64,000 nt of DNA from Planctomycetota bacterium (GTDB lineage Bacteria > Planctomycetota > Phycisphaerae > Phycisphaerales > SM1A02), in the NCBI GenBank assembly GCA_022566535.1, contig JADFIR010000005.1:1-64000 (forward strand), read 5' to 3'. Made by a program: the position numbers and the translations under genes. Under the pieces are notes generated by a model. That model had not been told where the DNA came from. It was given only the letters and a program-made list of their open reading frames with translations, and did no database searches. Below are positions 33,909 to 56,059 of the stretch, piece by piece (within the stretch, counting starts at the first letter, position 1; every line of letters starts with the position of its first letter).

Positions 33909-34414
33909 GAGCGGTCCTCCGTCAGGGTGAGCCGGGTGGTTGACCGGCCGTCAGACAGCTCTACATCCTCAGCACTGATGGCGGTGACGGTGTGCCGGCG
34001 GATGCGGTCGCCGCTTGTGACGATGAGCAACCGATCGGTGTCCGGGTCATACAGGGCTGCCTTGAGCTGCCCGCCATCGTTGATGATGCCGATCAGCTGG
34101 AACCGAATCGACTCTTGGCGCTTGGCGCTTTTGGATTCGCGCTGCTGGTCGGTCTCCTGCGGTGCAACGGGATTCCACAGGCGAGCGGCAAAGGCGCCCA
34201 GGTCGATGGTGTCCGAAGCGTTCGGCGACTTTTCGATCAGCCCAGGTGATGGCTGATTCAGGGTGATCGCAGTCCCGGACGAGTATTGTTCAAGCGGAAG
34301 CGCCGCCCACCAGGCGCACATCACGATGGCCGATGCACCGATGAGCCAGGTCATGCGTATCCGGCGCCGCACCGTTCGGATTGGATCACTCAGGGATCGC
34401 AAGGCGCTGCACAC
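33905..34414 (-). CDS. GspC-like inner-membrane protein
   Basis: About 169 residues if the GTG at 34414 is used; this keeps the basic RTVRRRIR segment before the membrane helix (WLIGASAIVMCAWWAALPL). An ATG at 34354 would remove it. The periplasmic part has a linker and a beta-rich IRFQLIGIINDGGQLKAALY region like the homology region of GspC/PilP, which connects platform to secretin. It overlaps gspK by about 29 bp. Confidence 0.6.
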   Translation of the reverse strand: MCSALRSLSDPIRTVRRRIRMTWLIGASAIVMCAWWAALPLEQYSSGTAITLNQPSPGLIEKSPNASDTIDLGAFAARLWNPVAPQETDQQRESKSAKRQESIRFQLIGIINDGGQLKAALYDPDTDRLLIVTSGDRIRRHTVTAISAEDVELSDGRSTTRLTLTEDRS

Positions 34415-35327
34415 ACTCCCATGTTGACCGAGACTGCACGTAGACCGCCCACCAGGATCGTCGCAATGTCCCCACGCGCAGGTCGATTCGAAAGGCCCAA
34501 GCGTTACTGCTTGCGGCGATCCGGGGCGCCGCTGAGTGCGGGTCAGCGGTCGGAGATAGAGCACTCAGCGAGGCGAGACGCCCTTGGGTTCGAGCGGCGA
34601 TGATCTGCTCGAGGCCTCCGCGGCCAGCGAGGCGAAGCGCCGCTTCGACAAGGTCCATCGCAGCGGTATTGACGTTGATGCGGCCGGGATTGTGGGTGGC
34701 AAGATAGGCGCCGAGGCCGACCCCGCTGGGTTCGCTCGCTGATATACCGGGCGGAGTTGATTCACTTTGCACCTGCGGCGAAGAGTCCTCACCACTTGCT
34801 CGTTTGAAGACCATCGGCGGTGATCTCGTGGGCTTTGGAAAGACGCCGATCGCCCCGCCGGTATGCCGCGCCGCCAGGAACAGGTCCAGCCCTGCCGGCT
34901 GGTCGCGCGGAATCGTCACCTGATCAAGGACGCGCTTGACGTCGGTGGGAAGTGCGAGGCGAAGCGGCGAACCGGAACGGGCAACATTGATGGGCACCAT
35001 CCCGCACTGGTCCCACGCGGTGATGCGCAGCTCATGGTCGGTGGCGTCGATGACCCAGGCATCGTGAAGTACCTGAACCTGCGGGCTCGTCGCCTCAGGC
35101 GGCAACACGACGGTTGAGGACTTGGAGGCGAGCCAGGCGAGGATCGGTGCTTCCGCGGCCCGCAGCAAGTCGTCGGCGACAATGGTGCGCGTCGCGACGA
35201 TTCGTTGGGTCTTCACGGTTGACGCCAGCCGGGCCAGGGTCGCCGCCGCGGTGATGGCGACAATCAGCGTGGCCAGGACCAACAACAGGGCCGCTCCGCG
35301 CCGAGTTGGAGAATGCGGCCGGGTCAT
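34386..35327 (-). CDS. gspK: Type II secretion minor pseudopilin GspK
   Basis: 313 residues. The N-terminus RRGAALLLVLATLIVAITAA is the non-canonical GspK pseudopilin signal, lacking the Glu5 of other pilins. The large C-terminal domain contains NPGRINVNTAAMDLVEAALR, a hallmark of GspK helix-hairpin-helix regions. GspK caps the pseudopilus tip with GspI and GspJ. It overlaps gspJ by 4 bp. A Ser/Pro-rich insertion is present at about 180-200. Confidence 0.85.
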   Translation of the reverse strand: MTRPHSPTRRGAALLLVLATLIVAITAAATLARLASTVKTQRIVATRTIVADDLLRAAEAPILAWLASKSSTVVLPPEATSPQVQVLHDAWVIDATDHELRITAWDQCGMVPINVARSGSPLRLALPTDVKRVLDQVTIPRDQPAGLDLFLAARHTGGAIGVFPKPTRSPPMVFKRASGEDSSPQVQSESTPPGISASEPSGVGLGAYLATHNPGRINVNTAAMDLVEAALRLAGRGGLEQIIAARTQGRLASLSALSPTADPHSAAPRIAASSNAWAFRIDLRVGTLRRSWWAVYVQSRSTWECVQRLAIPE

Positions 35328-35911
35328 GGCAGAACATAGCTCCGCGCGACGTCAGGTCCTTGGATCGAAGTGATGGCGATGGTGAGAAGGTTGTGTTCAT
35401 GATCGATCTCGCATTGCCATTGGCGTACACGGTCCAGCAATGGGCGAGTGCATTGCTCGCCGTGCGCGCTTCGCTGCTGCAGTCGCAGCTCGCCGGAGAA
35501 GGCGTCGAAGATGTAGCGGTGGGTGGCAGGACCGGTCACACTTCCGGGGGTCACACGTCCGGGGGTCACAGTTCCGGGGGCGGGGGGGGGGGCGGTCCAA
35601 CTTCCGGGGGTGGCTCGCGTTCGTATGCGTAGCATCCCGTCAACGACCTCGACACGGGGCTTCTGATCACTGCGGCCGCCGATTTGCGCGCCCGAGAACC
35701 CACTGGAGAAGTCCCCGGAGAAGTCACCGGTGACCAGGTCATCATGGATCAACTGCAGCGCGGCCTCGGCCGCCGCCCGCCACCGCATCGGCTCGGCGGC
35801 GCTTGCGCTTGCCCGAGCCGCCACCTGTGTCCAGGCGGCGATCGCGAGCGTGATGGGCGTCAGGAGGCTGACCGCCAGCAGCAGCTCAATCATGGTCAGG
35901 CCGCGCCTCAT
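35324..35911 (-). CDS. gspJ: Type II secretion pseudopilin GspJ
   Basis: 195 residues from the ATG of MRRGLTMIELLLAVSLL, the prepilin peptidase site (G before LTMIE) plus hydrophobic helix. An earlier in-frame start would overlap gspI by 43 bp. The C-terminal part has CEIDHEHNLLTIAI. An internal stretch (APGTVTPGRVTPGSVTGP) is produced by four near-identical G-rich repeats at 35537-35615 and is probably an expendable linker. Overlaps on both sides show translational coupling. Confidence 0.82.
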   Translation of the reverse strand: MRRGLTMIELLLAVSLLTPITLAIAAWTQVAARASASAAEPMRWRAAAEAALQLIHDDLVTGDFSGDFSSGFSGAQIGGRSDQKPRVEVVDGMLRIRTRATPGSWTAPPPAPGTVTPGRVTPGSVTGPATHRYIFDAFSGELRLQQRSAHGEQCTRPLLDRVRQWQCEIDHEHNLLTIAITSIQGPDVARSYVLP

Positions 35912-36303
35912 GGAACGGGCTCCTCTGTATCGTGATGAACCGGAACCCACCGGAAGATGAACGTTTTACCAGATGAGAACGCCAGCCAGGTGTGATCTAC
36001 TTCAGCATCTTGTGCCCTCAGGCGGCGCACGGTCACCAGCGGGCGTTGCGGATGTTCCGGCCAGGGCAACTGGAGTTCATCATGCTCAGACGGTGATTTG
36101 GCGCTGAAGGTGGAAGGATCGGCGAGGAATGAATCGGCGAGTCGAGCCAACTCGAAGAGTTCAAACGGCGCGTCCGGGGGCGGGGGTGCCCCCAAGGCGC
36201 GCATCGCCCGCTGCAGCATCGGCATGCACGCAGCGGCGAGCATCGCCAACAGGACCGTGGCCGCGAGGACTTCCACGAGTGTCAAGGCGCGCCGGATTCT
36301 CAT
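35908..36303 (-). CDS. gspI: Type II secretion pseudopilin GspI
   Basis: 131 residues. It starts RRALTLVEVLAATVLLAMLA, the class III signal with Glu5 and the conserved helix. The soluble domain is small, with RPLVTVRRLRAQ and FIFRWVPV strands. A short PPPPDAP insertion again comes from a G-rich motif. It overlaps gspH and gspJ by 4 bp each. Confidence 0.82.
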   Translation of the reverse strand: MRIRRALTLVEVLAATVLLAMLAAACMPMLQRAMRALGAPPPPDAPFELFELARLADSFLADPSTFSAKSPSEHDELQLPWPEHPQRPLVTVRRLRAQDAEVDHTWLAFSSGKTFIFRWVPVHHDTEEPVP

Positions 36304-36764
36304 CGCTTCGACTCCGTGATCAGGCCGGTCAACCCCCAGACACGCCAGTGGATGACTCGTTGGGCGGTGCGAACCTCGACGTCGTAGTCCACGGTTCGAC
36401 CGAGCCGATCAAACACGATTGATTGGGTGCGCGGATCGACACGCAATCGCCCCCAGACGCCGTCGGGTAACCCGACCGTTGTCAATCGCTCATTTGACTC
36501 GACCGAGTGAAGTGTCACTGCATTGCCTTGGTCGTCGACACTCATGACCACCGGGCCCAGGCTGCGACTGAAGAGCCGCGCGCGTGCATCCAGATCGCGC
36601 CATTGCGCCGCAGCAGCGTGGAGCCGAGCGCTGTCACTGGCGGCCGTGAGCCCGACGGTCGCCACGCCCGCCACCATCGAGACGATGACGATGACCGCCA
36701 TGACCTCAATCAGTGTGAATGCGGACCGAGCGCCATGATCTGATTGGTTGCACTTCGCCATCAT
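36300..36764 (-). CDS. gspH: Type II secretion pseudopilin GspH
   Basis: 154 residues; prepilin site SAFTLIEVMAVIVIVSMVAG, then a helical linker and a beta-rich C-terminal domain (WGRLRVDPRTQSIVFDRLG). The position after gspG and the size fit GspH. Two adjacent ATG codons could serve as start. The stop overlaps the gspI start. Confidence 0.8.
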   Translation of the reverse strand: MMAKCNQSDHGARSAFTLIEVMAVIVIVSMVAGVATVGLTAASDSARLHAAAAQWRDLDARARLFSRSLGPVVMSVDDQGNAVTLHSVESNERLTTVGLPDGVWGRLRVDPRTQSIVFDRLGRTVDYDVEVRTAQRVIHWRVWGLTGLITESKR

Positions 36765-37253
36765 CTAATCGATCCCCCGCAGGTTCGCGGAGCTGATGTC
36801 TGCGCTCTCGCCTTCACCGCCCGGCTGGCCGTCGGCGCCGTAGCAGAGCACTTCATACGGGTGACCGCTCGGCCCGGGCGTTACATAGAGGTAGGTGCGC
36901 ATCCACGGATCGAGAAGTTGACCTGGGTTCAGGTAATAGGAAGCGGACGGCGTGGTCTGACCGTCGGTCAACACTGCGAGCCCTTGGTCATTGGATGGCC
37001 AGGCGCTGTGCTCGAGTCGGTACGTTTCCAGTTGACTCACGATGATGCCGATTCCGCTCTTGGCCAGCTCGTGCTTGGCCTTGCCGAAAGAGCCGGAGAA
37101 CCCCACCAGAAGCGTGCCGGCGATCAGACCCAGGATGACCACGACCGCGAGTATCTCCACCAGCGTCATACCCCTTTGGCGCTTTTGCGCTTCGTCGCTC
37201 CATCGCTTCTTCCCTCGATGCCTCGATGCCTTGATGCCTGGTTGCCTTCCCAT
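36765..37253 (-). CDS. gspG: Major pseudopilin GspG
   Basis: 162 residues from the ATG overlapping the gspF stop (TGATG). The prepilin motif GMTLVEILAVVVILGLIAG is followed by the hallmark GspG region LETYRLEHSAWPSNDQGLAV and the end DPWMRTYLYVTPGPSGHPYE, including the calcium-loop area. GspG polymerises into the pseudopilus that pushes substrates through GspD. The leader (about 28 residues) is longer than usual. Confidence 0.92.
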   Translation of the reverse strand: MGRQPGIKASRHRGKKRWSDEAQKRQRGMTLVEILAVVVILGLIAGTLLVGFSGSFGKAKHELAKSGIGIIVSQLETYRLEHSAWPSNDQGLAVLTDGQTTPSASYYLNPGQLLDPWMRTYLYVTPGPSGHPYEVLCYGADGQPGGEGESADISSANLRGID

Positions 37254-38608
37254 CACAACACCTCCTGCATTCGCAATAGCGGCAATACGGCCGCCATGAC
37301 CACGATTCCCACCAACATGGCGAGCGCCAGGATCACACACGGCTCGAGCAGCGTCGCGAGTCGATCGATGAGCCGATTGGCCTGGCGGGCGTAGCGATGA
37401 CCGATGCGTTCCAGCAGCACATCCAGCTCACCGCTGGCCTGGCCGATCTCCAGCAGGCGGCGGAACTCCGGGTCAAACCAGTGCTCGTCATCCAGGGCTG
37501 CCGAGAGTTCCTCACCCCGCTCAACGTGATCAGCCGCGTCGAGCAGCCGGCGCCCCAAGTGGCCTGTGGCGGTGGGCGCGAGCACCCGCAGGGCTTCGAC
37601 CATGGGCACGCCGCTGCGCAGCAACTGGGCCAGCTGCAGGGCAAGCCGCGCGACTGCCATTCGACGCAGTACCTTCGGAGAAAGGTCTCGCAACCAACGC
37701 GGTAGCTCGACTCCGTACGGAGCGGCGGCGCCCGCGGCCACCACGACCATTGCGATAAGGGCAAATAGAACGAGAACGATCGCCAACCAGTACCCGGCGA
37801 GGAACTGACCGAACGCCATCACCTTGGCGGTCAGGGCCGGCGTCTCGATGTCCGCATCGGCCAGGACTTGCGTGAGGTCCGGTAGGGTCTTTGTGCTCAG
37901 GAACACCACGACGCCGAGGCCGACCATGGCCACAATCGATGGATACGCCAAGGCGCTGATGAGCTTGTGGCTCAACTCGCCGCTGCGCTCGTGCCGCTGG
38001 GCCACCGATCTGAGCACCTCCGCCAAGGTGCCGCTGTGCTGGCCGGCCTGAACCATCGCGATCTCACTTCCCTCGAACCACGATGGGTGGTTGCTCATGG
38101 CCAGGGCAAGTGACGAGCCTGACCGCAACTGTTCGCGGATGTTGACGAGCATGGATCGCAAACTCGACCCCCGGAAGTACTCCCGGACGCTCGTCCTGCG
38201 CGTGGTCGTACCGATCACCGTGTCCACGGCTTCCAGCAGTGGCAGACCGGAGCTGAGCATCGTGGCCAGGCTGTCGAAGAGCTCCGCGCGCTGATGCCGG
38301 CGACGTACCCGGAAGTAGCGCTGAGCGCTGCCCAAGATGGATCGCCGGGCCTCGTGCCACCAACTCAAACGGCCGGCGTGGCGCAGATGATCGGCTCTGG
38401 ACGATCGGACGGGGCGCAGGTCAACTACCTGCAGACCGATGCGCCGTAGCGCTGCCCGTACATCGGCAGCACATTCGCCGGCCAGTTCGCCGGCGCGCCT
38501 CGCCCGCCCCCCGGAACCCCCGGAACTCGCGGAAATCGCGGAATCCCCGGAGCCCCCGGCACCCCCGGGACTTTGAATCTCAACTGCGGTGTATCGCCAG
38601 ACGGTCAT
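37253..38608 (-). CDS. gspF: Type II secretion inner-membrane protein GspF
   Basis: 451 residues. Two repeated GspF domains are visible: FDSLATMLSSGLPLLEAVDT with the first helices, and LALQLAQLLRSGVPMVEALR with the second; the last helix is ILALAMLVGIVVMAAVLPLL. The N-terminal linker has a Gly/Ser-rich insertion (SPGGAGGSGDSAISASSGG) built from CCCGG-type repeats. GspF is the platform core that couples the GspE ATPase to pseudopilus assembly. Confidence 0.92.
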   Translation of the reverse strand: MTVWRYTAVEIQSPGGAGGSGDSAISASSGGSGGRARRAGELAGECAADVRAALRRIGLQVVDLRPVRSSRADHLRHAGRLSWWHEARRSILGSAQRYFRVRRRHQRAELFDSLATMLSSGLPLLEAVDTVIGTTTRRTSVREYFRGSSLRSMLVNIREQLRSGSSLALAMSNHPSWFEGSEIAMVQAGQHSGTLAEVLRSVAQRHERSGELSHKLISALAYPSIVAMVGLGVVVFLSTKTLPDLTQVLADADIETPALTAKVMAFGQFLAGYWLAIVLVLFALIAMVVVAAGAAAPYGVELPRWLRDLSPKVLRRMAVARLALQLAQLLRSGVPMVEALRVLAPTATGHLGRRLLDAADHVERGEELSAALDDEHWFDPEFRRLLEIGQASGELDVLLERIGHRYARQANRLIDRLATLLEPCVILALAMLVGIVVMAAVLPLLRMQEVL

Positions 38609-40143
38609 CCCGAACCCTCCACGACGCGCTTGGCTTCCGCCTGGGTGGTCCGACCGGTAGCGACCAGGCGCTCACCCTCTTCGCGCAGGGTTCGCAGACC
38701 GCCGGCCTTGGCCGCAGCGCGCAAAATGGCCAGAGTGGCGCGGTTGGAGATCAGCTCGCGGATCGATTCATCAATCGTCATCAACTCGAACAACCCGGTG
38801 CGGCCGAGAAAGCCGGTGCCCAGGCATTCATCACAGCCGTCTCCATTGCAATCAGCGTGGATGAGCCGCACCAATCGCTGGGCGAGCACCGCGGCAAGTG
38901 AAGCGCTGACCAGGTACGGCTCAATGCCCAGGTCGATCAGCCTGGTCACGGCGCTGGCGGCGTCGTTGGTGTGTAGGGTGGAGAAGACCAGGTGGCCGGT
39001 GAGGCTGGCCTGGATCGCCATGCGAGCCGTCTCGGCGTCGCGGACCTCACCCACCATCACCACATCGGGATCTTGACGAAGAATATGACGGAGTCCGGTG
39101 GCGAAGGTGATTCCCTTCTTGGTGTTCACCTGAGACTGACTGATGGCCAGCCCCACTGTGGAGAGCTCGTATTCGATCGGGTCCTCGATGGTCATGATGT
39201 TGACTTCGGCCGAGCCGGTGCGCCGCAGCGTCGAATAGAGCGTGGTGGTCTTGCCCGAGCCGGTGGGACCGGTGACCAGGATGATGCCGTTGGTGCGGCC
39301 GGCTCGATCCAGATACCGCTCGGCCACTTCCGAGGGCATGCCGAGCTTCTCAAACCCCCGGAAGCTCTCACACAGCTGATGCGCGTTGTCCAGCAGTCGA
39401 ACCACGGCCCGTTCGCCGTAGCTCGTCGGAAGCGTGCTGATGCGCAGGTCAATCGCTCGATGGGCGATCCTGACCGTGGCTCGCCCATCCTGCGGAATCC
39501 GCCGCTCGGCGATGTCCATTCGCCCCATGACCTTGATGCGGCTCACGACGGCCGTGGTCAGCTTCCGGGGGAGCTCGCGAACCGTGTGCAGGACGCCGTC
39601 GAGCCGGTAACGCACCAGGGTGCGGTCATCCAGCGGCTGGAAGTGCACATCACTCGCCCGGCGTCCCAACGCTTCAAACAAAAGCGCATCAACGAGCTTG
39701 ACCACCGGCCCTTTGCCCTGGGTGCTGAGTAGATCGCGATCGGCTTCGGCCAAGAGACGATCGATGTCAGCGGTGTCGTACTGATCAATCTCATCACCCG
39801 CTGCGTCATCAGCCTCGGCGGATCGCCCGTAGACCTCATCGATCATGCGCGCGATTGCCTCGGCGTCGGCAATAACCGGATGAACGTTGACCCCCAGCCG
39901 AACACCGACGTTGAAGATGGCCGCAGGATCGGTTGATTCAGAGACGGCGAGTTGCTCGACGCCGTCAATTCGACCTTGTGAGAGGATCAAGTGTTGGCGC
40001 GCAAAGTCGCGGGGGACCAGTGTCACGAACTCCTGACCGACTGCGTCGCAGCGCAGATCAAATGATTGATCGTCGGCGGTCGCGACATCCTCACCAGGAG
40101 CATCGACGGCACGGTCCATGGATGGTGCATGCGCCCCGCTCAT
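38605..40143 (-). CDS. gspE: Type II secretion ATPase GspE
   Basis: 512 residues from the ATG that overlaps the gspD stop. Walker A is GPTGSGKTTT, with Asp box IMTIEDPIEY, Walker B DPDVVMVGEVRD and a His box TGHLVFSTLHTND. The Cys cluster DCNGDGCDECLG is a shortened version of the usual zinc-binding tetracysteine motif, with three cysteines. It powers pseudopilus extension from the cytoplasmic side. An Asp/Ala-rich N1 domain of about 120 residues precedes the ATPase. Confidence 0.93.
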   Translation of the reverse strand: MSGAHAPSMDRAVDAPGEDVATADDQSFDLRCDAVGQEFVTLVPRDFARQHLILSQGRIDGVEQLAVSESTDPAAIFNVGVRLGVNVHPVIADAEAIARMIDEVYGRSAEADDAAGDEIDQYDTADIDRLLAEADRDLLSTQGKGPVVKLVDALLFEALGRRASDVHFQPLDDRTLVRYRLDGVLHTVRELPRKLTTAVVSRIKVMGRMDIAERRIPQDGRATVRIAHRAIDLRISTLPTSYGERAVVRLLDNAHQLCESFRGFEKLGMPSEVAERYLDRAGRTNGIILVTGPTGSGKTTTLYSTLRRTGSAEVNIMTIEDPIEYELSTVGLAISQSQVNTKKGITFATGLRHILRQDPDVVMVGEVRDAETARMAIQASLTGHLVFSTLHTNDAASAVTRLIDLGIEPYLVSASLAAVLAQRLVRLIHADCNGDGCDECLGTGFLGRTGLFELMTIDESIRELISNRATLAILRAAAKAGGLRTLREEGERLVATGRTTQAEAKRVVEGSG

Positions 40144-42395
40144 CGGATCACCCTCGGTTCGACTTCCGGCCACCCGTCATCCACACCGGCGGCGAGCACA
40201 TCCAGGTCGCTGAGGTACTTCAGATCCTCAAACCCACCGTGGCGCAGGATGTCGGCCCGGATGAAGATGTAGAACCGTGATAGGCTCCTGGATTTCGAGC
40301 GGCTCTTGAACAACTCGCCCAAAAAAGGGATGTCACCCAGCAGCGGCACCTGGGAGACCGCTTCGGCGGCGCTTTGGACCTCAAGGCCTCCCACCACGAC
40401 CGTGTACCCATCGGGGATCGTCACCACGCTTTGAATCGTGTTCTGCTGGCGTGGCGGTGGAAGGGATGGATCACTCGATTCACCCACGAACGAGCTCAGC
40501 GAGACCGAGTACTCCAGGGTCAGATGGTCGCCTTCGGCGATCTGCGGCGTGACCGTCACCGTAGTGCCCGCGTCCTGCGTGCCGCCGAAGGAGGTGGTGG
40601 CGATGGTGTCCGAAGCGTTGGTGGCCAGGAAGGGTTCCTGCAGGACCGAGTCCAGTGTCGCCTGCTGGTTGTTGTTGACCAATACTTTGGGGATGTTCAG
40701 TGTCCGGCCGTCGTTGACCGTCTGTAACGCCCGGATCAGGACCCGAAAATCGCCCGGGCTCAGTACGAAGCCGCTGAAGCCGCGGCCCGCCGGTGACGTG
40801 ACTTGATCGACACCCGCGGCGCCAAGCCCGAACAGCGACGAGAGGGTGATCAACGTACTGCCGCTGATCCCCATATTCTCCAGCTCCACGCCAAGGTCTA
40901 GCGTGTCACCTTCAGTCATGCTCACCATCAGCGCCTCGATCATCACCTGGGGTTGACGCACATCCAACGTGCGGATGAGCTCCTCAAGTTGGTCGAGCCG
41001 CCGGGCATCGCCGATGGCGATGAGCGTGTTCGTCCCTTCGTCAGCGGTCAGGATGAGTGATGGTTCAGCTTCAGTCGGCAGCGTGCGGGTCCCATACGGG
41101 CGTTCCTCGGCCTCATGCGGACGCCTCTGCTCTTGTGTGGCCATGAGTTCGGCAATCACCCCAGGTGGTAGCACTTCCCGCACAGTTCGCTGTGGGCTCG
41201 ATCGCTCGTCGCGCCCGAGCCTCGGGCGGAACTCGCCTGCTTGCAGCACGCCGGCCTCGATGAGGCTTGACAGCACCTCCATGATCTCGTGGACGCTGCG
41301 ATTGCGTATGGGGAACGCTCGCACCGGTCGTCGGGCCTCGATCGCGACTGAATCCAACCGTTCAATCAGGTCGTCGATCTGTTCATGCTCAGCAGCGGTC
41401 GCCGTGACGATAAGCGTGCCGGTAAGCTCATCGCTGACCAGCCGCCACCGATCTGCTGAGCCGCGCGGGCCGGGATCGCGCGCGGTCTGCTCGATGAGCC
41501 GGCCCACCTCCGCAATTGAGAAATACCGAGGCGCGTAGCTGCGGGTCTCCACCGTTTGGCGCTGATCGAAGCGCTGAATCAGCTCCAACCACGGCTCGAT
41601 CTCGTCCTGCGGGGCGACCAACACGATCGCGTTGCCGTCCGAAACGGGCGAGAGCTTGCCGACGAGTGGCTTGACGGCGATCGCATTGTGGGCGGTGGCG
41701 GCGGCCGTCACCAGCGCGGCCAGTTGCGTGGCGTTGAGATGCTGCGAGGGAATCTGGCGGATGATGGTGTCGGTGCCCGGAATGTCGATGAGCTCGATCA
41801 ACTGCAGTATCTGGTCAATCCGCGGGCGCAAGTCTGACAGCAGGAGGCGCTGCTCATCGCCCAGAGCGATGACCGAACCCCCCGGCGTGGAGACGATCGG
41901 CTTGACTGCCTCGATCACGTCCTTGACCGGCCGGTGCTTCAGATCCAGGATCACCGTCGCAAACCCCGCGATCGTTTGGGGTCGGGGTGGGAACGCAGGC
42001 TCGATTCGAGCCGTGCTTGCGGCCTCGGATAGCTTGACGATGCTGAGCACTTCGTTGCCGGGCATCTGGATACTGGTCAATCCCCGCGCTGCTAGCAGCT
42101 GATTGGTCAGCGCCCAGAGCTGCTCATCACTCACCGCGGCACCGAGGCGCAGGGTCACGGTTACTCCCTGCAACGTCCGCGCGTCGTATTCGATCTTCAA
42201 TCCCAGGCGCTGAGCGCTCAGGTCCACCAGCCGGGCCAGCTGTACCTCGCCCGAGAGGGTCGTGCGGGCCAAGTCGTCTGTCTGGCCCATGGCCGGCAGC
42301 TGCAGCGCAGCCGAGAGGTACAACAGCCACGTACCCAGGCACGCTCCGACCGTCCGCGATGACACGAATCGAGCTATCCGTAGACTGAGCGCCAT
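40140..42395 (-). CDS. gspD: Type II secretion outer-membrane secretin GspD
   Basis: 751 residues from the ATG before a signal peptide (LGTWLLYLSAALQLPAMG). N-domains with repeated VIEAVKPIVSTPGG and RAFPIRNRSVHEIMEVLSSL segments precede the secretin core: VMIEALMVSMTEGDTLDLGV, TVTVTPQIAEGDHL and PDGYTVVVGGLE, then VPLLGDIPFLGELF near the end. It forms the outer-membrane gate. It is the first gene of the operon; a 39-bp dyad (42507-42545) lies about 110 bp upstream of the start. Confidence 0.93.
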   Translation of the reverse strand: MALSLRIARFVSSRTVGACLGTWLLYLSAALQLPAMGQTDDLARTTLSGEVQLARLVDLSAQRLGLKIEYDARTLQGVTVTLRLGAAVSDEQLWALTNQLLAARGLTSIQMPGNEVLSIVKLSEAASTARIEPAFPPRPQTIAGFATVILDLKHRPVKDVIEAVKPIVSTPGGSVIALGDEQRLLLSDLRPRIDQILQLIELIDIPGTDTIIRQIPSQHLNATQLAALVTAAATAHNAIAVKPLVGKLSPVSDGNAIVLVAPQDEIEPWLELIQRFDQRQTVETRSYAPRYFSIAEVGRLIEQTARDPGPRGSADRWRLVSDELTGTLIVTATAAEHEQIDDLIERLDSVAIEARRPVRAFPIRNRSVHEIMEVLSSLIEAGVLQAGEFRPRLGRDERSSPQRTVREVLPPGVIAELMATQEQRRPHEAEERPYGTRTLPTEAEPSLILTADEGTNTLIAIGDARRLDQLEELIRTLDVRQPQVMIEALMVSMTEGDTLDLGVELENMGISGSTLITLSSLFGLGAAGVDQVTSPAGRGFSGFVLSPGDFRVLIRALQTVNDGRTLNIPKVLVNNNQQATLDSVLQEPFLATNASDTIATTSFGGTQDAGTTVTVTPQIAEGDHLTLEYSVSLSSFVGESSDPSLPPPRQQNTIQSVVTIPDGYTVVVGGLEVQSAAEAVSQVPLLGDIPFLGELFKSRSKSRSLSRFYIFIRADILRHGGFEDLKYLSDLDVLAAGVDDGWPEVEPRVIR

Positions 42396-42506: not shown

Positions 42507-42545
42507 TCCAGTATTTGGAATTTGAAGCAAGCTCCAAATAGTCGA
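42507..42545. promoter_or_regulatory. 39-bp dyad operator, site 1 (gspD / ArsR intergenic region)
   Basis: TCCAGTATTTGGA, a 13-bp spacer with TTGAAGCAA, then TCCAAATA followed by a degenerate end. It matches site 2 at 44902-44940 in sequence and spacing. It lies between the divergent gspD and ArsR-1 genes and could control both. Confidence 0.7.
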
Positions 42546-42652
42546 TGGCAGCGCGATCGTTCACGCCGGTCTTGTCGGGTGTGTGCTTCAGGCTGGGAGC
42601 TTGGAGTTGAACAGCATCCTCGGTCCATCATCATCGTGGGACGAATTGGCAG

Positions 42653-43030
42653 ATGCCCAAGACACGCCCCAAGCGCCGTCAGAAGAAGTATGCAAGCTCA
42701 TCGCTCGTCGATCTCTTAGGACTGCTTCGCAGCGAGCCGCGGCGGCGCATCCTGATCCAGCTGGCCGCAGGGCCGAAGGACGTGGCGACCCTGGCCGCGG
42801 AGATGAAGCTTTCGGCTTCAACCGTCAGATACCATCTGGGGAGACTGCGGGACCGCCGCTTGGTGCACGTCAGGCGAGTCGCGAAGCGCTGCCTGTTCCG
42901 GCACTCCCCCAACGTCAGTGCCATTGTGGGCCGCCAAAGGGTGATCTTGAGGGTGGCCACGCCAGATGGCAGCCAAGTGACGTTGATGATCCCTGCTCAA
43001 GTCGGCGGCCGCCAGGCGAGGTACAAATAG
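42653..43030 (+). CDS. ArsR-type winged-helix regulator 1
   Basis: 125 residues. Basic N-terminus (MPKTRPKRRQKK), then an ArsR-like winged helix: LLRSEPRRRILIQLAAGPKD, recognition helix LSASTVRYHLGRLRDRRLV. No cysteine metal-binding motif is seen, so it is not an arsenic sensor as such. The C-terminal part ends in a beta-rich VTLMIPAQVG segment, also seen in regulator 2 (VTIQLPLRP). Its closeness to the dyad before gspD suggests it controls the secretion operon (inference). Confidence 0.8.
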   Translation: MPKTRPKRRQKKYASSSLVDLLGLLRSEPRRRILIQLAAGPKDVATLAAEMKLSASTVRYHLGRLRDRRLVHVRRVAKRCLFRHSPNVSAIVGRQRVILRVATPDGSQVTLMIPAQVGGRQARYK

Positions 43031-43274
43031 ACCGCGCGACCAGCCGGCCAATCGTCATAGCGCCAACGGCCTATGCCACCCTAGCCGCCATTTGGAGCTC
43101 ACCCTTTCTGCTCACACTGGAGCCCCGCCTCTCGCCTCTTACTTGCGGGAAGCGAAAGAAGAGGGGCGACGAATCTTCGCATATCGCCCTTCATGCTGCG
43201 TATTCACCTATAGGAGCCAAGAGCACGCTCGGCGTCGCCAGCTTGGGAACGAACCAGAGCTTCCGCGATGAGGC

Positions 43275-43368
43275 CCAACGGGTTCCAGATCGGGGGTGTC
43301 ACACCTGTGTCACCCGCCGGGCCTGAACAGGTTCCAAACTTGGTGTGGCATACCTATGTCATCGCGTA
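43275..43368 (+). repeat. Imperfect tandem ~46-bp repeat in a 530-bp intergenic region
   Basis: Two units, each AAC-GGTTCCA, a short gap, then GTGTCACACCTGTGTCA or GTGGCATACCTATGTCA. They lie about 200 bp upstream of the ArsR-2 start. The rest of 43031-43560 shows no gene. Possible regulator-binding sites or a duplicated promoter. Confidence 0.45.
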
Positions 43369-43560
43369 GACCACGACCCAAAGGATCCCACCTGAGAGTG
43401 AATCAGGGGTGCATCATGTCATTGCCCCAGGCCCGAGAGCCTTTCGCGGCGCTCCCACTTCTACGCCGCGAAGCCATTCCCCAGCCGTAAGGCGGAGGGT
43501 GTCCAGCTCGATGGAGTGGCATCGGAGTTCTGAGCCGTCGTGGGGTCGGAGGAAACGACC

Positions 43561-43968
43561 ATGTCCAAGGGAAGACAAGGACCGGCGGTGTGCGCGCGGG
43601 CGCCGCCCTGCCGGTCGGTGTGCGAACTGTTGGGCCATCTCGGCCACGAGATTCGGTTGGAGATCGTCTGTAGCCTTGCCGAATCGCCCAAGGACGTCTC
43701 GACCCTAGCCAACTGCCTGGAGCTGGATGTCACCACGATCAGTCACCACCTGCGCCGTCTTTGGGAATGTGGACTGGTACAGGTGGAGGCCTTCAAGCAG
43801 AGGCACGTGTACCGGCTCGGCGATCATCTCGAGGTGACCAGCGGTCACGGCGTCGTGCACCTGAGCTCCGTGAGCGGTGATGGAGGTCAGGTCACGATCC
43901 AGCTGCCCTTGCGCCCTCTGCACACATCCGCCGACACGACCGCGAAACCGCTGGGTGGTCACCACTAG
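43561..43968 (+). CDS. ArsR-type winged-helix regulator 2
   Basis: 135 residues from the ATG following GGAGGAAAC. The winged helix is LLGHLGHEIRLEIVCSLAES, then LDVTTISHHLRRLWECGLVQ, with the typical wing afterwards. A second, C-terminal beta-rich segment parallels that of regulator 1, so the two are paralogues. Several Cys residues are present but no classical CVC metal site. It is encoded between the gspD and RHS loci, both bearing the shared dyad. Confidence 0.8.
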   Translation: MSKGRQGPAVCARAPPCRSVCELLGHLGHEIRLEIVCSLAESPKDVSTLANCLELDVTTISHHLRRLWECGLVQVEAFKQRHVYRLGDHLEVTSGHGVVHLSSVSGDGGQVTIQLPLRPLHTSADTTAKPLGGHH

Positions 43969-44056
43969 CACGGCGAATCTCCTGCGATTCTTACGCCCAT
44001 CGGGCCCAGACCACAGTGCCTAACAAGACCTCGGGCAGCGCGGTTAAGCGAGCTGC

Positions 44057-44818
44057 TCAGCCGCCGGTGTCGGCGATCGCCTGCTCCCAGGCCGTGGTGA
44101 CCACCGCGAGATTGGCATCGAGATTGGCCTTCGCAGTGGCCACCAACGGATTGCCGCGGAGCTGCTGCAGCAGTGCCTGGGCCTCGGGATCGGGCTCTTC
44201 ACCCAGCTTCGCCGAGATCCGCTCGTTGGCTAGGGCCTCGCGCAGCTGGACCCATTGGGCCTCGGTGCGATCGACCGTGAGGAGCTCGATGGGCAGGTCC
44301 CAGTTGCGGTTGCCGCGAATTGCGGCCAGGGTGTTTTGCTGGCTCGCGCTGAGACTTGCCGTCGCGCTGGTAAGGAGGCCGTTCAGCACGCTGTGGCGCT
44401 GATCCTCTGCGAACGAAAGCTGCGTCATGGCCGCGACGTAGGTGGTGATCTGCTCGGGTGTGGCTTGTCCACTTTGGATCACCCGCTTGAGAAGATCGCA
44501 CTGTTGCTTGGGTCCGGCGAAGGCGGCGTCGGCGAGCTCGATGGCCGCCGGGTTGGCGATCATATCAACCAGGGAATCGTCGACGACCGTGGCGACGGCC
44601 GATGGGGACCCACCGGCCGCGGTCAGCTGGGCGGGACCCAGGCCGATCCGGAGCATGGCTGCGGCGAGCTCATCGGCTGTGGGCGCCACCAACAGCATCA
44701 ACGCTCTGGCCCTCGCCTGCTCGATCGAGTGGACCTGGACATAGACGACAGCGAAGACGATCCCAAGCATGATGATCGCGGGGTAGCGTGCTTTGCCGAG
44801 GTGCTTTGTCATGGTCAT
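44057..44818 (-). CDS. Membrane-anchored hypothetical protein next to the RHS gene
   Basis: 253 residues from the ATG after AAGGAGG. One N-terminal membrane helix (YPAIIMLGIVFAVVYVQV), then a helix-rich, Ala/Leu-rich extracytoplasmic domain with LNGLLTSATASLSASQQNTL. No family recognised. It is divergent from the RHS gene and shares its promoter region and the 39-bp dyad, so it may be part of the same regulon or serve as a partner for the RHS protein or the secretion system. Confidence 0.65.
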   Translation of the reverse strand: MTMTKHLGKARYPAIIMLGIVFAVVYVQVHSIEQARARALMLLVAPTADELAAAMLRIGLGPAQLTAAGGSPSAVATVVDDSLVDMIANPAAIELADAAFAGPKQQCDLLKRVIQSGQATPEQITTYVAAMTQLSFAEDQRHSVLNGLLTSATASLSASQQNTLAAIRGNRNWDLPIELLTVDRTEAQWVQLREALANERISAKLGEEPDPEAQALLQQLRGNPLVATAKANLDANLAVVTTAWEQAIADTGG

Positions 44819-44901
44819 GTGAGACCTCCTTGAGAAATCCAATACCAACGCCACGCCCAGAAGCATGGCCACCGTGTAGTAAGCACCGAGTTGGGGCTCG
44901 T

Positions 44902-44940
44902 GTCCAGTATTTGGAACTTGATGCAAACTCCAAATACTGG
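44902..44940. promoter_or_regulatory. 39-bp dyad operator, site 2 (upstream of the RHS gene)
   Basis: TCCAGTATTTGGA and TCCAAATACTGGA form perfect 13-bp arms around a 13-bp spacer with TTGATGCAA. Same arm sequence and layout as site 1 before gspD. It lies between two divergent genes. Confidence 0.75.
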
Positions 44941-45042
44941 ACTTGGGCTTGATCCGGGCGCATTGAGTTGAGTCAGATAAGACGCCGCGTGCTTTGCGCC
45001 GCCGGTGCGGCGTGGGGCGCGGATCTCGATTGGAGGTTGATC

Positions 45043-48000
45043 ATGGCTCGGCTAAACTCGTCTGCGTCGGTGTACCGCTTCGGTGTCCTGGCCGCGTTGC
45101 TGGCGATGGTTGCTCCTGGGCGGCCGGCGTGGGCCGACCCGATCCTGGAGATCCACGACGGCTCGCTGACGACGTATCTGCCATCGAGCAAGTCGAACAT
45201 CCAGGATATCCGCGCGCTGGTGGATCAGCGGGGCGTGAACATCGACGGCTCACTGCGCCTTCGGTCAACGCAGCGGATGGCGATGGGGGGCAATCCGTTC
45301 AGGGAGGCGTGGAACCGCAACCAGATGCTCTCCGGCGCTCGGCTGGATACGGGCACGTTCGTCATCAACGACGTCGATCTGACCTTTCCGGGGGACGTAC
45401 CGTGGCTGATCGGCCGCAGCTACAACACCCGCCAGAAGGACAGCGGTGGCTCATACTTCGCCAGCAACGGCTACCAGGGCAAGAACTGGTTCCAGAGCTC
45501 CCAGCCGGAGCTGGTGTTCCACGACAGCGCAACCGACTCGGAAGATACGATCTACCTGGTCTACGGGGCGGACCGGTTCCTCGAGTTCCGTCGGGCCGAC
45601 GATGCGGGCCAGGGTGACAGCACCGACACCTTCAAGGCGGTCAACGGCGCGGCGGGTGCGATTCTGCTGCACACCTTCGACGACGTTGACCTGGCCACGT
45701 ACTACGACCAGAACGGCAACAGAGTCGACTTCTTCTGGTTCGGCGACGCAGACATCGACGACGACATCGAAGGGTCGATCTGGCGGATGATGGACCCCAC
45801 GGTGGAGGTGGATCCCTACGATCCCGCCGACCGCCTGGTGGCCGGCGACGGCAACACCGCCTATGTCGGCGACATCGGCAACCCGAACACGGCCCTGAGC
45901 TCCGGGTACAACGCGACGACCGGGGCGGTCACGACCGCCTACGACAGCACGGGGCGGCGGTTCACGTACACCTACACCAGCGGGAAGCTGACCCAGGTGA
46001 AGGCCGAAGTCAATAGCGGCGGCTGGACGGAAGTCGGCAAGGTCGATTACAGCTACTACGTTGCCGCGGACGCCCACGGCGAGGATGATGACCTGGAACT
46101 GGTCACCATTACCCTGCCGCTGACCGACTCCGGGGTATCGTCCATACGCAAGAAATATTACTGGTACTACGAAGGCACCTACGACGCCACGAACAACCCG
46201 GGCTATCACCACCAGATCCAGTACGTCATCGACTTCGAGGGCTATCGCGGCTACGACTGGGACCAGGACTCCAATCTCGATGATGACCCACAAAGCGCTA
46301 CTGAAGCGAATCTCAAGTCCTATGCGAGCAGCTTCTTCAAGTACGACACGGACCGCCGCATCGTCAGCGCCTGGTTCAACGGGGCCTGCGGCTGCTCGGG
46401 CGCGGCCAGCGGCACGCACACGTTCACGTACGAGTCCAACGGCAGCTACACGGACAACACCGGCTACGACACCACCTGGAAGTCACGCACAATCGCCAAG
46501 AAGCCGGATGTCAAGCACAAGACGGCTGACCCGGCCATCGAATCGTACATCACGCAGTACTTTGACGAGGTCGGCCAGCCGCTGAGCCGGGTAAGCACCA
46601 AGCTGACGCCCACCGACACCTCCGGGAACCAAAAGACGTGGGCCACGAAGGTCACGCGCAACGCCGACGCCCAGGTCACGGATATCCACTCTCCGGCCAA
46701 CGTGACCGGCTACACCCACAGCACGGCATCGTTCACGACCTCGACATCCGCCGGCCTGGTGACGGTCTTCACCCGCGTGCCCTCCGGCGACATGAAGGGC
46801 TTCGTGGCCGACCGCAAGCACAAGAAGGGCACCAGCGGCAGCGCCTATCTCGACGGCACCTCCACGTACACCTCGCGGAGCCTCACCGTTAGTGACGTGG
46901 GTCTGACCAGGCCGTTGATCGCCAGCCGGCGGGTCTACACCAAGGAGATCATCTCCGGCACCGACGACTCACGCTTGACCTCCTTGGCCTACACCTTCCA
47001 TAGCGCGACGAGCACGGCCGTTCTGTACATCGCCCCCAAGAAGATCACCACCACGAACCCGGCCGTGAGCACCGCCAATAACGGCTCGAACTCGTCCACC
47101 AAACCCAAGCGATACCTGCGCAAGGACGGCACCACGGCCTTCAGCGAGTCGGCGACCAACATCTTCACCTACACGCAGTACACCGACGGCCAGCTGAGCA
47201 AGCGGATCGATGATGTCAAGACCAACGGCACATTCCCCACGGGCGACGACCCGAACACCGACTTCGGCATCACGGAGACCGCCGACGGCTGGGATCGCAG
47301 CACCACCTACGCCTACGACGCTCAGGGCCGCTCCGACATCGTCACCCAGCCCGATGGGCGCGTGGGTAAGCGATACTACTCCAAGCTCGCCGACAGCCGT
47401 TTAGTGACGCTTGGCTACAACGACTACGAGGATCTTGCCACGGACAAGTTCCACGGCCCGGTGCAATACACGGTGCGCAACCATGCCCGCCGGACCGAGG
47501 TCCGGGCGACGGTGTCGCTGACCGGCAACGAGTCCACCACCGCGCTGACCGGGCACATCGACGAGACCGACAGCGATCCCATCACCGCCATGGACCTGGG
47601 CACGGTGGCCCGCATGACGGTCAGCGTCTTTGATGAGACCGGCGGCGTCCTGGAGGAATCTCGCCCCTACTTCCTCATCCCCGCCTCCGGCTCGGGCACC
47701 GACGGCACCAACTACGACGCCACGTTCATCGGCTACGACGACCAGGGCCGCCGGATGCGGACCAAGGCCCCCCACGGCACCATCTCCCGCAGCGACTTCG
47801 ACACCCTGGGTCGGGTCGTGCGCCAGTGGATCGGCACCAACGACAATGACTTCGACGGCGGTGAGACCGGCGGCACCGACAACATGGTCAAGACCTCCGC
47901 CAAGGAGTACGACTCCGGCAACGACAAGGACAACAGCTCGGTCACCAAACGGACGGCTTTCATTCAGGACTCCGAGACCGGCAAGCGGGAACCCAGCTAC

Positions 48001-51000
48001 AGCTTCGACCTGCGGGGCCGGGTGCTGCTGACGACCAATCCCACGGAGCCGGAGCACGTCCTGAACAAGTACGACAACATGGGCCGCGTCATCGCGAGTG
48101 GTGTCTACAAGAACGGCAACGTCGCTGCGACCGACGATCCGACCACCCGGACGACCGACCGTCTGAGTCTCACGCAGACCTTCTACGATGAGATGGGCCG
48201 TGTCTGGAAGACCCAGCGGCACAAGATCGATGATGCCGACGGCTCGGACGATGACAACCTCCAGACCCTGACCTGGTACGACGCCGCCGGAAGGGTCATC
48301 AAGGTGGACGGGTCACAGCTGACCAAGACCTCCTACGACCGCCTGGGCCGCCGGACCCATCGGTTCACCCTGGCCAGCGACAACGACACCGGCTATTCGG
48401 ACGCCGATGACGTGACCGGCGATATCGTGCTCCAGGAGACGCAGACCGTCTACGAGTCCTCCGACAGCGGTGACGTGGTCATGACCGCCACCATCGACCG
48501 CTTCCATGACGACTACGGCGCGGGCGAGACCACCGGCGCCCTGGACACCAACGCCGACTTCGTCGACGTGAAATACACCGCCGCCAACCTCGAGGGCCGC
48601 ATCCAGATCACCGCGAACTGGTACGACCGGTTCGGCCGGCGCACGGACACCGTGCGCTACGGGACCAACGGCGGGTCGGACTTCAACCGCAGCGGCCTGT
48701 CCGTCCCCACCCGCTCCGACACCAAGCTGCTCACCGAGCAGGTGTACAACACCGACGGCACCCTCAAGTCCACCACCGACCCCGAGAACCTGGAGACCCG
48801 CTTCGAGTATGACGATGCCGGCCGGCAGACCAAGGTCATCAGCAACTACACGGATGGCACGCCCAGCGCCGATACCGACCAGACCATCAAGTACGAGTAC
48901 ACGGACGGTCTGCGCACCAAGATGACCGCGGATCTTCCCGCCTCCGAGACCGACCAGGTGACGACCTACACCTATGCCGTCACCACGACCGACACGCCGG
49001 GAGCGTCGAAGATCGCCGCCAAGCACCTGCTGCGAGAAGTGAAGTACCCCGACTCCGCTGACTCCAACGATGTCGTGCGCTTCGCCTACAACGCCCAGAG
49101 CCAGCAGATCTGGACCAAGGACCAGGAGGGCAACGTCATCGAGACCGACTACGATGACGCCGGTCGGCAGACCCACCGCCGAATCACGACTCTGGACGCC
49201 GACTTTGACGGGGCGGTCCGCCGAATCAGCACCACCTACGACAAACTCGGTCGGCGCGACCTGGTCACCCAGTACGACAACGCCACGGTCGGCTCCGGCA
49301 CCGTGGTGGACGAGGTCAAGTTCACCTACGAGGACTGGGGCAACGTCGAGAAGTTCGAGCAGGATCACAACTCCGCCATTGGCGGCAGCTTGCTCTATGA
49401 CATCGACTACACCTACGCCAAGGCCACCAACGGCCGCAACACCATCCGCCGCTCTGGATTCACCCTACCGGATGGCAACGTCATCACGTACCAATTCCGG
49501 TCGAACGATCTGCATGACGAGGAGGCCAGCCGGGTGACCAATATCAAGGATGGTGCGGTCACCCTCGTCATCTACGATTACAATGGCGTGGGACAGGTGG
49601 TGGGGACCGACTATCCCGAACCGGATGTGATGTGGGACCAGTTCGGCTCATCCGGCAGCTACCCCGACCTTGACCGGTTCAACCGCGTCACCTCCAGCCG
49701 CTGGACCAAGGACCTGGCCACCGACGTGGACTTCTACGATCTGGACATCACCTATGACCGCGACTCCAACATCACCCTGATCGAGGACAACGTCCACGCG
49801 GGCTTCGATGTGGACTACGACCTCGACAACCTCAACCGCCTCACCCAGGCCCAGGAGGGCACCTGGAACAGCGGCACTTCGCAGATCGACTCGACCACCC
49901 GCGACCAGATCTGGACCACCCTCTCCCAGACCGGCAACTGGGAGCTCGTCAAGCTGGATCTCAACGGCGACGGCGACTTCATCGATACCGATGAATACAA
50001 CGACGACCGTACCCACAACGATGTCAACGAGCTCACCGCCCGGGACACCGATGACGACGGCACGAACGACTTCACCCTCACTTCCGACAAGCTCGGCAAC
50101 CTCACCGATGACGGCGAACACTGGGAGTACGTCTACGACCCCTTCGGCCGGCTGCGCCAGGTCAAGAAGACCTCCGACCAGGCCCTGGTGGTCGAGTACA
50201 CCTACAGCGGCCTGGGTCATCGCATCGGCTGGCACTACGATGTCGATGGCAATGGCACCGTCGACGACATCTCGGATCCGTGGTTCCGCTTCGTCTACGA
50301 TGAGCGCTGGCGGATCGTGGCCACGTATCGCGATAGCGACAGCTCACCCAAGGAGCAGTTCGTCTACCACAACGCCGGGCTGAACGGCTTCGGCGGGTCC
50401 AGCTACATCGACACCGTGGTCCTGCGCGACAAGGACGCCAACACCGCCTGGTCTGCGGCCTCAGACGGCACCCTCGAGGAGCGCATCTACTACTGCCACA
50501 ACTGGCGCGGCGACGTCTCGGTGTTGATCACCGACACCGGCAACGAGATGGTTGAGTGGGTCAAGTACTCATCCTACGGCGTCCCCTTCGGCCTGCCCAA
50601 GGGCGACACCGACAGCGATGGCGATCTCGACACCACCGACTACGCGCAGATCGGCACGTGGATCCAGGCCGCACAGTACGATGTGCGTGGCGACCTTGAT
50701 CTCGACGGTGATGTGGACACGACCGACAGGACGATGGCCAACAACGCCTTGCCCATCACCCTGGGCTGGGGCGTGCTCTCAGATCTCGGAAACCGCAAGG
50801 GCTACGCCGGCTACGAGCTCGATGACGCCATCGCCGGCGCCTACCGCCTCTATCACGTCCGTAACCGCGTGCTCAACGCAGACCTCGGAAGATGGCTCCG
50901 GCGTGATCCCCTCGGGTATGTGGATGGTGCGAATCTGTATCCGTACGTGCGGTCGAATCCGATGACGTGGGTCGATCCGAACGGGACCAATATTCTTTGT

Positions 51001-51522
51001 GACATCGCCTGCCATGCTATCTGCGGGTTGGGATGCCTCGCACTTACAGGACCTGCCGCCTTTTTGTGTCACATCGCATGCTTCTTCTGGTGTTTTGCCA
51101 TCTGCAATCCCACCCCAATCGGCCCTGCTCTTATCCCCTTCCCTGACCCGCCACCCAAGCCTGATCCAGTCAAAGCATGTATAGCTAGGGCACAAGAATC
51201 GTATGACGGTGAACTCGCATGGTGCGACCAGGAGTGGGGTCCGGATCTTAATCCGATGGCCTATTGCTTCGATGAAAGCTGTCGTAGCTGGAACCACACG
51301 GTCTGCCGCGATAACGCCCAGGAACGATTCTGGTGTGCGAAATGTGAGTGCGATCCTCCGCCTGCTGGATGCGGTTCGAGCGGTGCTGGCCTCTGCCCGC
51401 CTCGGCGTTACGCTTATGCGGATTGTTGCGCCGATTCGTCGCCTAAATTTGAACCGGACCTTCGAGGGAGTGGACCTTTGGGTACACCTGGGGGGGACGG
51501 ATCTTTGCCTTGTCCCGGCTAA
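45043..51522 (+). CDS. Giant secreted RHS/YD-repeat protein with an inserted dockerin-like repeat
   Basis: 2159 residues from the ATG after GGAGG, with a signal peptide (FGVLAALLAMVAPGRPAWA). Dozens of YD repeats of the type FEYDDAGRQTKV and TYDRLGRRTHR build the shell. The conserved C-terminal core has AYRLYHVRNRVLNADLGRWL, then RRDPLGYVDGANLYPYV. Within the core, after YGVPFGLPKG, there is a calcium-binding-like pair, DSDGDLDTTDY and DLDGDVDTTDR, resembling a dockerin repeat. The last about 175 residues are Cys- and Pro-rich with hydrophobic stretches, the variable tip where toxins are usually found; the activity is unrecognised. Confidence 0.92.
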   Translation: MARLNSSASVYRFGVLAALLAMVAPGRPAWADPILEIHDGSLTTYLPSSKSNIQDIRALVDQRGVNIDGSLRLRSTQRMAMGGNPFREAWNRNQMLSGARLDTGTFVINDVDLTFPGDVPWLIGRSYNTRQKDSGGSYFASNGYQGKNWFQSSQPELVFHDSATDSEDTIYLVYGADRFLEFRRADDAGQGDSTDTFKAVNGAAGAILLHTFDDVDLATYYDQNGNRVDFFWFGDADIDDDIEGSIWRMMDPTVEVDPYDPADRLVAGDGNTAYVGDIGNPNTALSSGYNATTGAVTTAYDSTGRRFTYTYTSGKLTQVKAEVNSGGWTEVGKVDYSYYVAADAHGEDDDLELVTITLPLTDSGVSSIRKKYYWYYEGTYDATNNPGYHHQIQYVIDFEGYRGYDWDQDSNLDDDPQSATEANLKSYASSFFKYDTDRRIVSAWFNGACGCSGAASGTHTFTYESNGSYTDNTGYDTTWKSRTIAKKPDVKHKTADPAIESYITQYFDEVGQPLSRVSTKLTPTDTSGNQKTWATKVTRNADAQVTDIHSPANVTGYTHSTASFTTSTSAGLVTVFTRVPSGDMKGFVADRKHKKGTSGSAYLDGTSTYTSRSLTVSDVGLTRPLIASRRVYTKEIISGTDDSRLTSLAYTFHSATSTAVLYIAPKKITTTNPAVSTANNGSNSSTKPKRYLRKDGTTAFSESATNIFTYTQYTDGQLSKRIDDVKTNGTFPTGDDPNTDFGITETADGWDRSTTYAYDAQGRSDIVTQPDGRVGKRYYSKLADSRLVTLGYNDYEDLATDKFHGPVQYTVRNHARRTEVRATVSLTGNESTTALTGHIDETDSDPITAMDLGTVARMTVSVFDETGGVLEESRPYFLIPASGSGTDGTNYDATFIGYDDQGRRMRTKAPHGTISRSDFDTLGRVVRQWIGTNDNDFDGGETGGTDNMVKTSAKEYDSGNDKDNSSVTKRTAFIQDSETGKREPSYSFDLRGRVLLTTNPTEPEHVLNKYDNMGRVIASGVYKNGNVAATDDPTTRTTDRLSLTQTFYDEMGRVWKTQRHKIDDADGSDDDNLQTLTWYDAAGRVIKVDGSQLTKTSYDRLGRRTHRFTLASDNDTGYSDADDVTGDIVLQETQTVYESSDSGDVVMTATIDRFHDDYGAGETTGALDTNADFVDVKYTAANLEGRIQITANWYDRFGRRTDTVRYGTNGGSDFNRSGLSVPTRSDTKLLTEQVYNTDGTLKSTTDPENLETRFEYDDAGRQTKVISNYTDGTPSADTDQTIKYEYTDGLRTKMTADLPASETDQVTTYTYAVTTTDTPGASKIAAKHLLREVKYPDSADSNDVVRFAYNAQSQQIWTKDQEGNVIETDYDDAGRQTHRRITTLDADFDGAVRRISTTYDKLGRRDLVTQYDNATVGSGTVVDEVKFTYEDWGNVEKFEQDHNSAIGGSLLYDIDYTYAKATNGRNTIRRSGFTLPDGNVITYQFRSNDLHDEEASRVTNIKDGAVTLVIYDYNGVGQVVGTDYPEPDVMWDQFGSSGSYPDLDRFNRVTSSRWTKDLATDVDFYDLDITYDRDSNITLIEDNVHAGFDVDYDLDNLNRLTQAQEGTWNSGTSQIDSTTRDQIWTTLSQTGNWELVKLDLNGDGDFIDTDEYNDDRTHNDVNELTARDTDDDGTNDFTLTSDKLGNLTDDGEHWEYVYDPFGRLRQVKKTSDQALVVEYTYSGLGHRIGWHYDVDGNGTVDDISDPWFRFVYDERWRIVATYRDSDSSPKEQFVYHNAGLNGFGGSSYIDTVVLRDKDANTAWSAASDGTLEERIYYCHNWRGDVSVLITDTGNEMVEWVKYSSYGVPFGLPKGDTDSDGDLDTTDYAQIGTWIQAAQYDVRGDLDLDGDVDTTDRTMANNALPITLGWGVLSDLGNRKGYAGYELDDAIAGAYRLYHVRNRVLNADLGRWLRRDPLGYVDGANLYPYVRSNPMTWVDPNGTNILCDIACHAICGLGCLALTGPAAFLCHIACFFWCFAICNPTPIGPALIPFPDPPPKPDPVKACIARAQESYDGELAWCDQEWGPDLNPMAYCFDESCRSWNHTVCRDNAQERFWCAKCECDPPPAGCGSSGAGLCPPRRYAYADCCADSSPKFEPDLRGSGPLGTPGGDGSLPCPG

Positions 51523-56043: not shown

Positions 56044-56059
56044 TGGGCGAATCCGGTGA

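Follow-up and report, generated by a model that had tools for sequence, protein, structure and literature searches.

Proteins of the ArsR/SmtB family recognise palindromes ~26 bp long with a 12-2-12 layout (PMC8790569), and in the described pairs SmtB–smtA, ZiaR–ziaA and AzuR–nmtA a small winged helix-turn-helix (HTH) gene stands divergent from the gene it controls, with an imperfect palindrome of ~26–29 bp upstream (PMC8790569). Known type II secretion loci carry gspD-gspE-gspF together with pseudopilins. Both arrangements have counterparts in the DNA analysed here, the first 64,000 nucleotides of contig JADFIR010000005.1 (assembly GCA_022566535.1) of a bacterium from the phylum Planctomycetota, hereafter the window. 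From left to right it holds a type II secretion system (T2SS) operon with gspD, gspE, gspF and pseudopilin-like genes (minus strand, 31895–42395), arsR1 and arsR2 (both plus strand), a gene that we call p3 (minus strand) and a giant RHS gene (plus strand). A 39-bp dyad occurs twice in this module, as site 1 between the divergent gspD and arsR1 and as site 2 between the divergent p3 and RHS genes; the palindrome between arsR1 and gspD is similar in length to the ArsR/SmtB inverted repeat and is odd-centred (13-1-13). Judging from sequence comparisons, we consider it probable (roughly 0.7) that the dyads are an autogenous operator of the ArsR/SmtB type, putatively bound by an ArsR-like repressor encoded in the module, which would coordinate the T2SS, p3 and RHS genes.

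Both dyads stand where the initial annotation had placed them, before gspD and before the RHS gene and its divergent neighbour, each with a 13-bp spacer. The two 13-bp arms of site 2 are perfect (TCCAGTATTTGGA...TCCAAATACTGGA), while in site 1 the left arm is perfect and the right arm carries two mismatches (TCCAAATAGTCGA); spacer counted in, 87% of the 39 bp agree between the sites. Site 1 had been assigned to gspD, and it does lie ~111 bp from the gspD ATG (42395), but it lies equally upstream of arsR1, whose ATG (42653) is ~107 bp away. Allowing up to two mismatches, the 13-bp arm has four matches in the window against 0.58 expected, all of them within the two sites. The source genome comprises 3.36 Mb in 86 contigs, and a search of it for all 39 bp, three mismatches being tolerated, returns sites 1 and 2 only, so that the many unrelated positions which could have undone the proposed link are absent. 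The pattern ATTTGGA-N9-17-TCCAAAT likewise occurs in this genome at sites 1 and 2 only (control, 0), and the palindrome score of site 2 exceeds that of dinucleotide shuffles (p=0.005). Dyads of this kind might instead form RNA hairpins in 5' leaders, serving as attenuator, stabiliser or protein-binding RNA, and the predicted folds are indeed stable (site 2, -21.4 kcal/mol, z -7.8; site 1, -10.8 kcal/mol, z -3.5). However, such folding is expected of any perfect DNA palindrome, the sites sit between divergent genes, and neither a terminator call at the dyad nor an Rfam match in the window was obtained; we regard this explanation as very unlikely.

The genome G001, of the same genus, has the gene order of the window and provides a footprint of the two sites. 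Site 1 is identical there at 39 of 39 positions, which says little by itself because the surrounding region is 95% identical overall. Site 2 is more informative: its core matches at 22 of 27 positions (ATTTGGAACTTGATGCAAACTCCAAAT vs ATTTGGAATTTGAATCGAACTCCAAAC), whereas the flanking p3–RHS intergenic sequence is poorly conserved, with 58% and 66% identity at aligned positions on the two sides. Evolutionary constraint is seen in this core and does not extend to the outer TCCAG/CTGGA, which is not kept at site 2 of G001. Of the common 13-bp arm described earlier, present in both sites, the outer TCCAG part is accordingly not conserved, and because of this loss the evolutionarily supported unit is, on the alignment, the inner 27-bp palindromic core ATTTGGARYTTGM-N-KCAARYTCCAAAT rather than the 39-bp dyad. 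Six half-sites approximate ATTTGGARYTTGM flanking one central base. Palindrome matches in G015 (contig C18) and G044 (contig C67) were considered as relatives of the dyad and rejected, since their spacers differ and the G015 stretch lacks a detected module gene. In two further genomes of the genus, both incomplete, gspD and p3 were not detected.

The module itself extends well beyond the genus. Of 400 genomes of the order searched for p3, 48 have it, its protein relatives occurring in metagenome-assembled genomes of Planctomycetota/Phycisphaerales. In the neighbourhoods that were fetched, RHS adjoins p3, mostly divergently, an ArsR-like gene and gspD often stand next to them, and the gspD-ars-p3-RHS synteny reaches other genera and families. 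At six loci (G393, G223, G317, G338 and two S-RSF-IL-06 contigs) gspD comes immediately after p3 and is read from the same strand. The stretch ahead of p3, opposite RHS wherever that gene is present, would therefore also serve the T2SS at these loci.

That upstream region carries palindromes of its own. Across 35 loci, the palindrome upstream of p3 beats dinucleotide shuffles (p<=0.05) in 14, where 1.75 would be expected (binomial 5e-10), and in the window's own family it does so in all five, 72–88 bp from the p3 start. The spelling changes from genome to genome. In G136 the palindrome is TATTTGGTACTTGTTTCAAGTAACAAGTA, and TATTTGGTACTTG... stands both at p3|RHS and before gspD, the second copy upstream of gspD matching at 26 of 35 positions; G015 has CATTTGTAACTTATTAAAAGTTTCAAATG and G006 has AACATATGACGTATGTGACATACGTCATATGTT upstream of p3. 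In G338 the matched copies stand ahead of RHS and of p3-gspD (28/31), in G015 the second copy falls in the ArsR cluster (24/31), and G376 (two modules), G251, G223 and G344 have theirs inside the p3–RHS interval. We scanned six genomes for restriction of these palindromes, namely that of the window and G027, G338, G136, G376 and G251, and in the last five every site lies at a module (two sites each in G136, G027, G338 and G251, four in the two modules of G376). The loci used for comparing pairs were chosen after the pattern had been seen, so that the pair counts are descriptive and the 35-locus shuffle test is the cleaner one. The resemblance of the two dyads cannot be put down to chance, for which a short arm and nothing else would speak. 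Site 2 agrees with site 1 at 30 of 35 positions against 20 of 35 for the next-best place in the 64 kb, the dyad is conserved in G001 and palindromes recur order-wide; window comparison, genome-wide uniqueness and the order-wide test together refute chance. A mobile or repeated element (of the repetitive extragenic palindromic or miniature inverted-repeat transposable element kind) copied locally, or a recombination site, in either case without regulatory role, would fit the serine recombinase gene nearby (53970–56282). But only two copies exist in the genome, both in divergent intergenic regions, the core of site 2 outlasts its flanks, and palindromes of unrelated sequence hold the same position in other genera; this explanation is already largely refuted and scarcely credible. 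In G027 (L049, 3351–5297, minus strand), an identical 27-bp palindrome (27/27) lies before gspD and before a gene for a PA14-domain protein, in place of RHS/p3, which suggests that the T2SS is not always paired with the same gene.

The two genes between the sites had been called ArsR-type, and both belong to the ArsR family by Pfam HTH_5 (ArsR1, 39.9 bits; ArsR2, 52.6 bits; cutoff, 22); the proteins share ~37% identity. The AlphaFold model of ArsR2 shows a winged HTH (block values of the predicted local distance difference test, ~80–92) followed by C-terminal beta strands where SmtB-like proteins have helix alpha5, and the closest solved folds include CzrA, CadC and SmtB, with Z ~12 for the CzrA/SmtB alignment. 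As to the metal-sensing site of the family (ELCVCDL motif in alpha3, His/Asp in alpha5), inspection finds no CxC in alpha3, and the ArsR2 model has no alpha5 helix. Many members of the ArsR family sense signals other than metals; the missing site thus makes a metalloregulator less likely and does not lower the assignment to the ArsR family. In G136 a single ArsR lies between p3 and gspD, matched by ArsR2 and not by ArsR1 at the threshold used, and the half-site there is one base off that of the window (ATTTGGTACTTG vs ATTTGGAACTTG). These two facts favour ArsR2, which we put at about even odds as the binder of the dyads; ArsR1 is a doubtful candidate, and joint binding by both is the least likely arrangement of the three. 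The ArsR tree is mostly unresolved, its only firm groups being G136 with G015_b, the ArsR1 pair, the ArsR2 pair and one G034 pair. A palindrome-like GGGTGTCACACCTGTGTCACCC at 43294–43315, in the 530-bp gap between arsR1 and arsR2, is nearly kept in G001 and scores no better than shuffles; it is possibly a separate operator of arsR2.

Based on these observations, we propose a mechanism in which one operator is present twice, as the two dyads. A dimeric repressor of the ArsR/SmtB type, the product of arsR2 or arsR1, would bind the 27-bp core at gspD|arsR1 and at p3|RHS and silence both divergent regions; we infer repression rather than activation. Release on some signal would then switch on the T2SS operon, the regulator, p3 and RHS together, and the RHS protein would probably be exported by the T2SS of the module. 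The proposal of one regulon joining the secretion genes to the RHS gene, made initially from the window, gains support from the genome-unique sites, the module synteny, the matched palindrome pairs elsewhere and the p3-gspD adjacency.

Several findings weigh against this mechanism. About 60% of the regions upstream of p3 have no significant palindrome, and no copy was seen before gspD in the four f2 loci where that gene stands apart (L094, L097, L098 and L103). In G015, gspD lies on another contig (C16) with no matching site before it. The core has an odd centre instead of the classical 12-2-12 layout, and no sigma70-like promoter was found beside site 1 or site 2. Moreover, the G223 module has palindromes although its contig carries no HTH_5 gene, and the closest HTH_5 gene of G317 lies ~11 kb away; hence the binder of the palindromes need not be an ArsR protein everywhere. 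The last two cases also fit an explanation in which the dyads do serve the module as operators and are bound by a non-ArsR transcription factor, or by an ArsR protein encoded elsewhere, with arsR1 and arsR2 controlling something else. The genome does contain further HTH_5 genes, and GGGTGTCACACCTGTGTCACCC, though not beating shuffles, could be the ArsR site. On the other hand, most palindrome-bearing modules contain an ArsR gene, and the palindromes vary in spelling by genome yet stay restricted to the module, as expected of a co-inherited local regulator. We therefore consider an outside binder unlikely and retain the module-encoded ArsR-like repressor as the preferred reading.

Table 1. Dyads and genes of the T2SS–RHS module in the window.
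Feature	Position	Strand	Description and evidence
Site 1, 39-bp dyad	42507..42545	.	Intergenic, divergent gspD and arsR1; core 42513-42539, ATTTGGAATTTGAAGCAAGCTCCAAAT
Site 2, 39-bp dyad	44903..44941	.	Intergenic, divergent p3 and RHS; core 44909-44935, ATTTGGAACTTGATGCAAACTCCAAAT
gspD	40140..42395	-	T2SS secretin, 751 aa; Pfam Secretin E 8.7e-33; best NCBIfam match GspD, under curated cutoff
gspE	38605..40173	-	ATPase; Pfam T2SSE E 3.7e-120
gspF	37253..38608	-	Inner-membrane protein; Pfam T2SSF E 1.1e-45
Remaining gsp operon	31895..37340	-	Open reading frame (ORF) calls; gene order kept in G001 and other modules
Pseudopilin-like ORFs	36765-37340, 36300-36764, 35324-35950	-	ORF calls, synteny
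GspK-like	34386-35327	-	Weak GspK match
Further gsp-operon ORFs	32979-33908, 31895-32473	-	ORF calls, synteny
arsR1	42653..43030	+	ArsR-type winged HTH, 125 aa, candidate regulator B; Pfam HTH_5 E 3.9e-10
arsR2	43561..43968	+	ArsR-type winged HTH, 135 aa, candidate regulator A; Pfam HTH_5 E 4e-14; AlphaFold model, CzrA/SmtB-like fold
p3	44057..44818	-	All-helical protein with a membrane anchor, 253 aa; marker of the module, present in 48/400 genomes of the order; predicted model
RHS	45043..51522	+	Giant protein with RHS/YD repeats, 2159 aa; RHS core followed by a variable C-terminal tail; Pfam RHS_repeat; NCBIfam Rhs_assc_core E 1.7e-13

The coordinates of the module are collected in Table 1. 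Its secretion genes score far over the Pfam cutoffs for Secretin, T2SSE and T2SSF, and the ORFs below gspF are syntenic in other modules; the NCBIfam scores of the gsp proteins fall under the equivalog cutoffs. The p3 protein has no Pfam or NCBIfam family, and a fold search of its model gave no significant match in the PDB.

The RHS protein had been called toxin-like, a plausible description by its domain layout, which matches that of polymorphic RHS proteins. The RHS core is present, and the tails past the core are hypervariable, being entirely different between G000, G001 and other loci; for the tail of the window protein the analogy stops short of a known toxin, its last 159 aa having neither a Pfam family nor a recognised toxin domain, and no adjacent immunity gene was identified. 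RHS-core fragments lie downstream of RHS in several loci, the window included (52717–52912). The window fragment follows an intact RHS gene and has 93% identity to the RHS gene of G001; it may be an orphan tip or a leftover of recombination. A dockerin-like DxDxDGxxDxxD repeat (DTDSDGDLDTTDY...DLDLDGDVDTTDR), spotted by eye, lies shortly upstream of the core in the RHS protein, and the downstream RHS fragment of L096 scores as Dockerin_1. The recombinase gene to the right of the module encodes a large serine recombinase (Resolvase, Recombinase and zinc ribbon) and has a counterpart of 91% identity at a comparable position in G001; at the left edge of the window (1–231) there is an ORF resembling resolvases.

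The secretion routes usually named for RHS and other polymorphic proteins are type VI secretion systems, Tc or Sec-dependent ones. In the present case a family of RHS proteins is tied to a T2SS by synteny, by gene arrangement and by palindromes confined to the module, taken together. The connection extends throughout an order of Planctomycetota that is represented mostly by metagenome-assembled genomes, and the open-access papers searched gave no relevant description of a T2SS linked to RHS or ArsR in planctomycetes. The module now has a defined DNA element and two small proteins as candidate regulators, and the re-spelled palindrome pairs form a natural data set for repressor–operator coevolution. 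More tentatively, the module may be an order-wide planctomycete device, in which a dedicated T2SS, p3 and a variable-tip RHS protein form a two-site regulon under a local ArsR-like repressor that diverges fast and whose operator takes a new spelling in each lineage; it could then be a T2SS-borne RHS weapon or a cell-recognition system with its own coevolving switch.

Compared with the described ArsR/SmtB systems, the regulator core of the window aligns to CzrA/SmtB, but the putative targets are a secretion operon and an RHS gene, not metal handling. By inspection the regulators lack the ELCVCDL motif, and predicted C-terminal beta strands replace helix alpha5; the core spans 27 bp around its single central base, and the spelling of the palindrome drifts between genera. 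RHS/YD-repeat polymorphic toxins share with the window protein the RHS repeats and core, the hypervariable C-terminal tails and the downstream RHS-core fragments, whereas the window protein is linked to a T2SS and p3, and no toxin or immunity domain is recognised in its tail. Unlike known type II secretion loci, this T2SS has p3, genes for ArsR-like regulators and an RHS gene as recurrent partners across the order. The proposed regulation would be a variant of ArsR-type autogenous control and not a new kind; the order-wide linkage of T2SS, RHS and p3 is the more interesting part.
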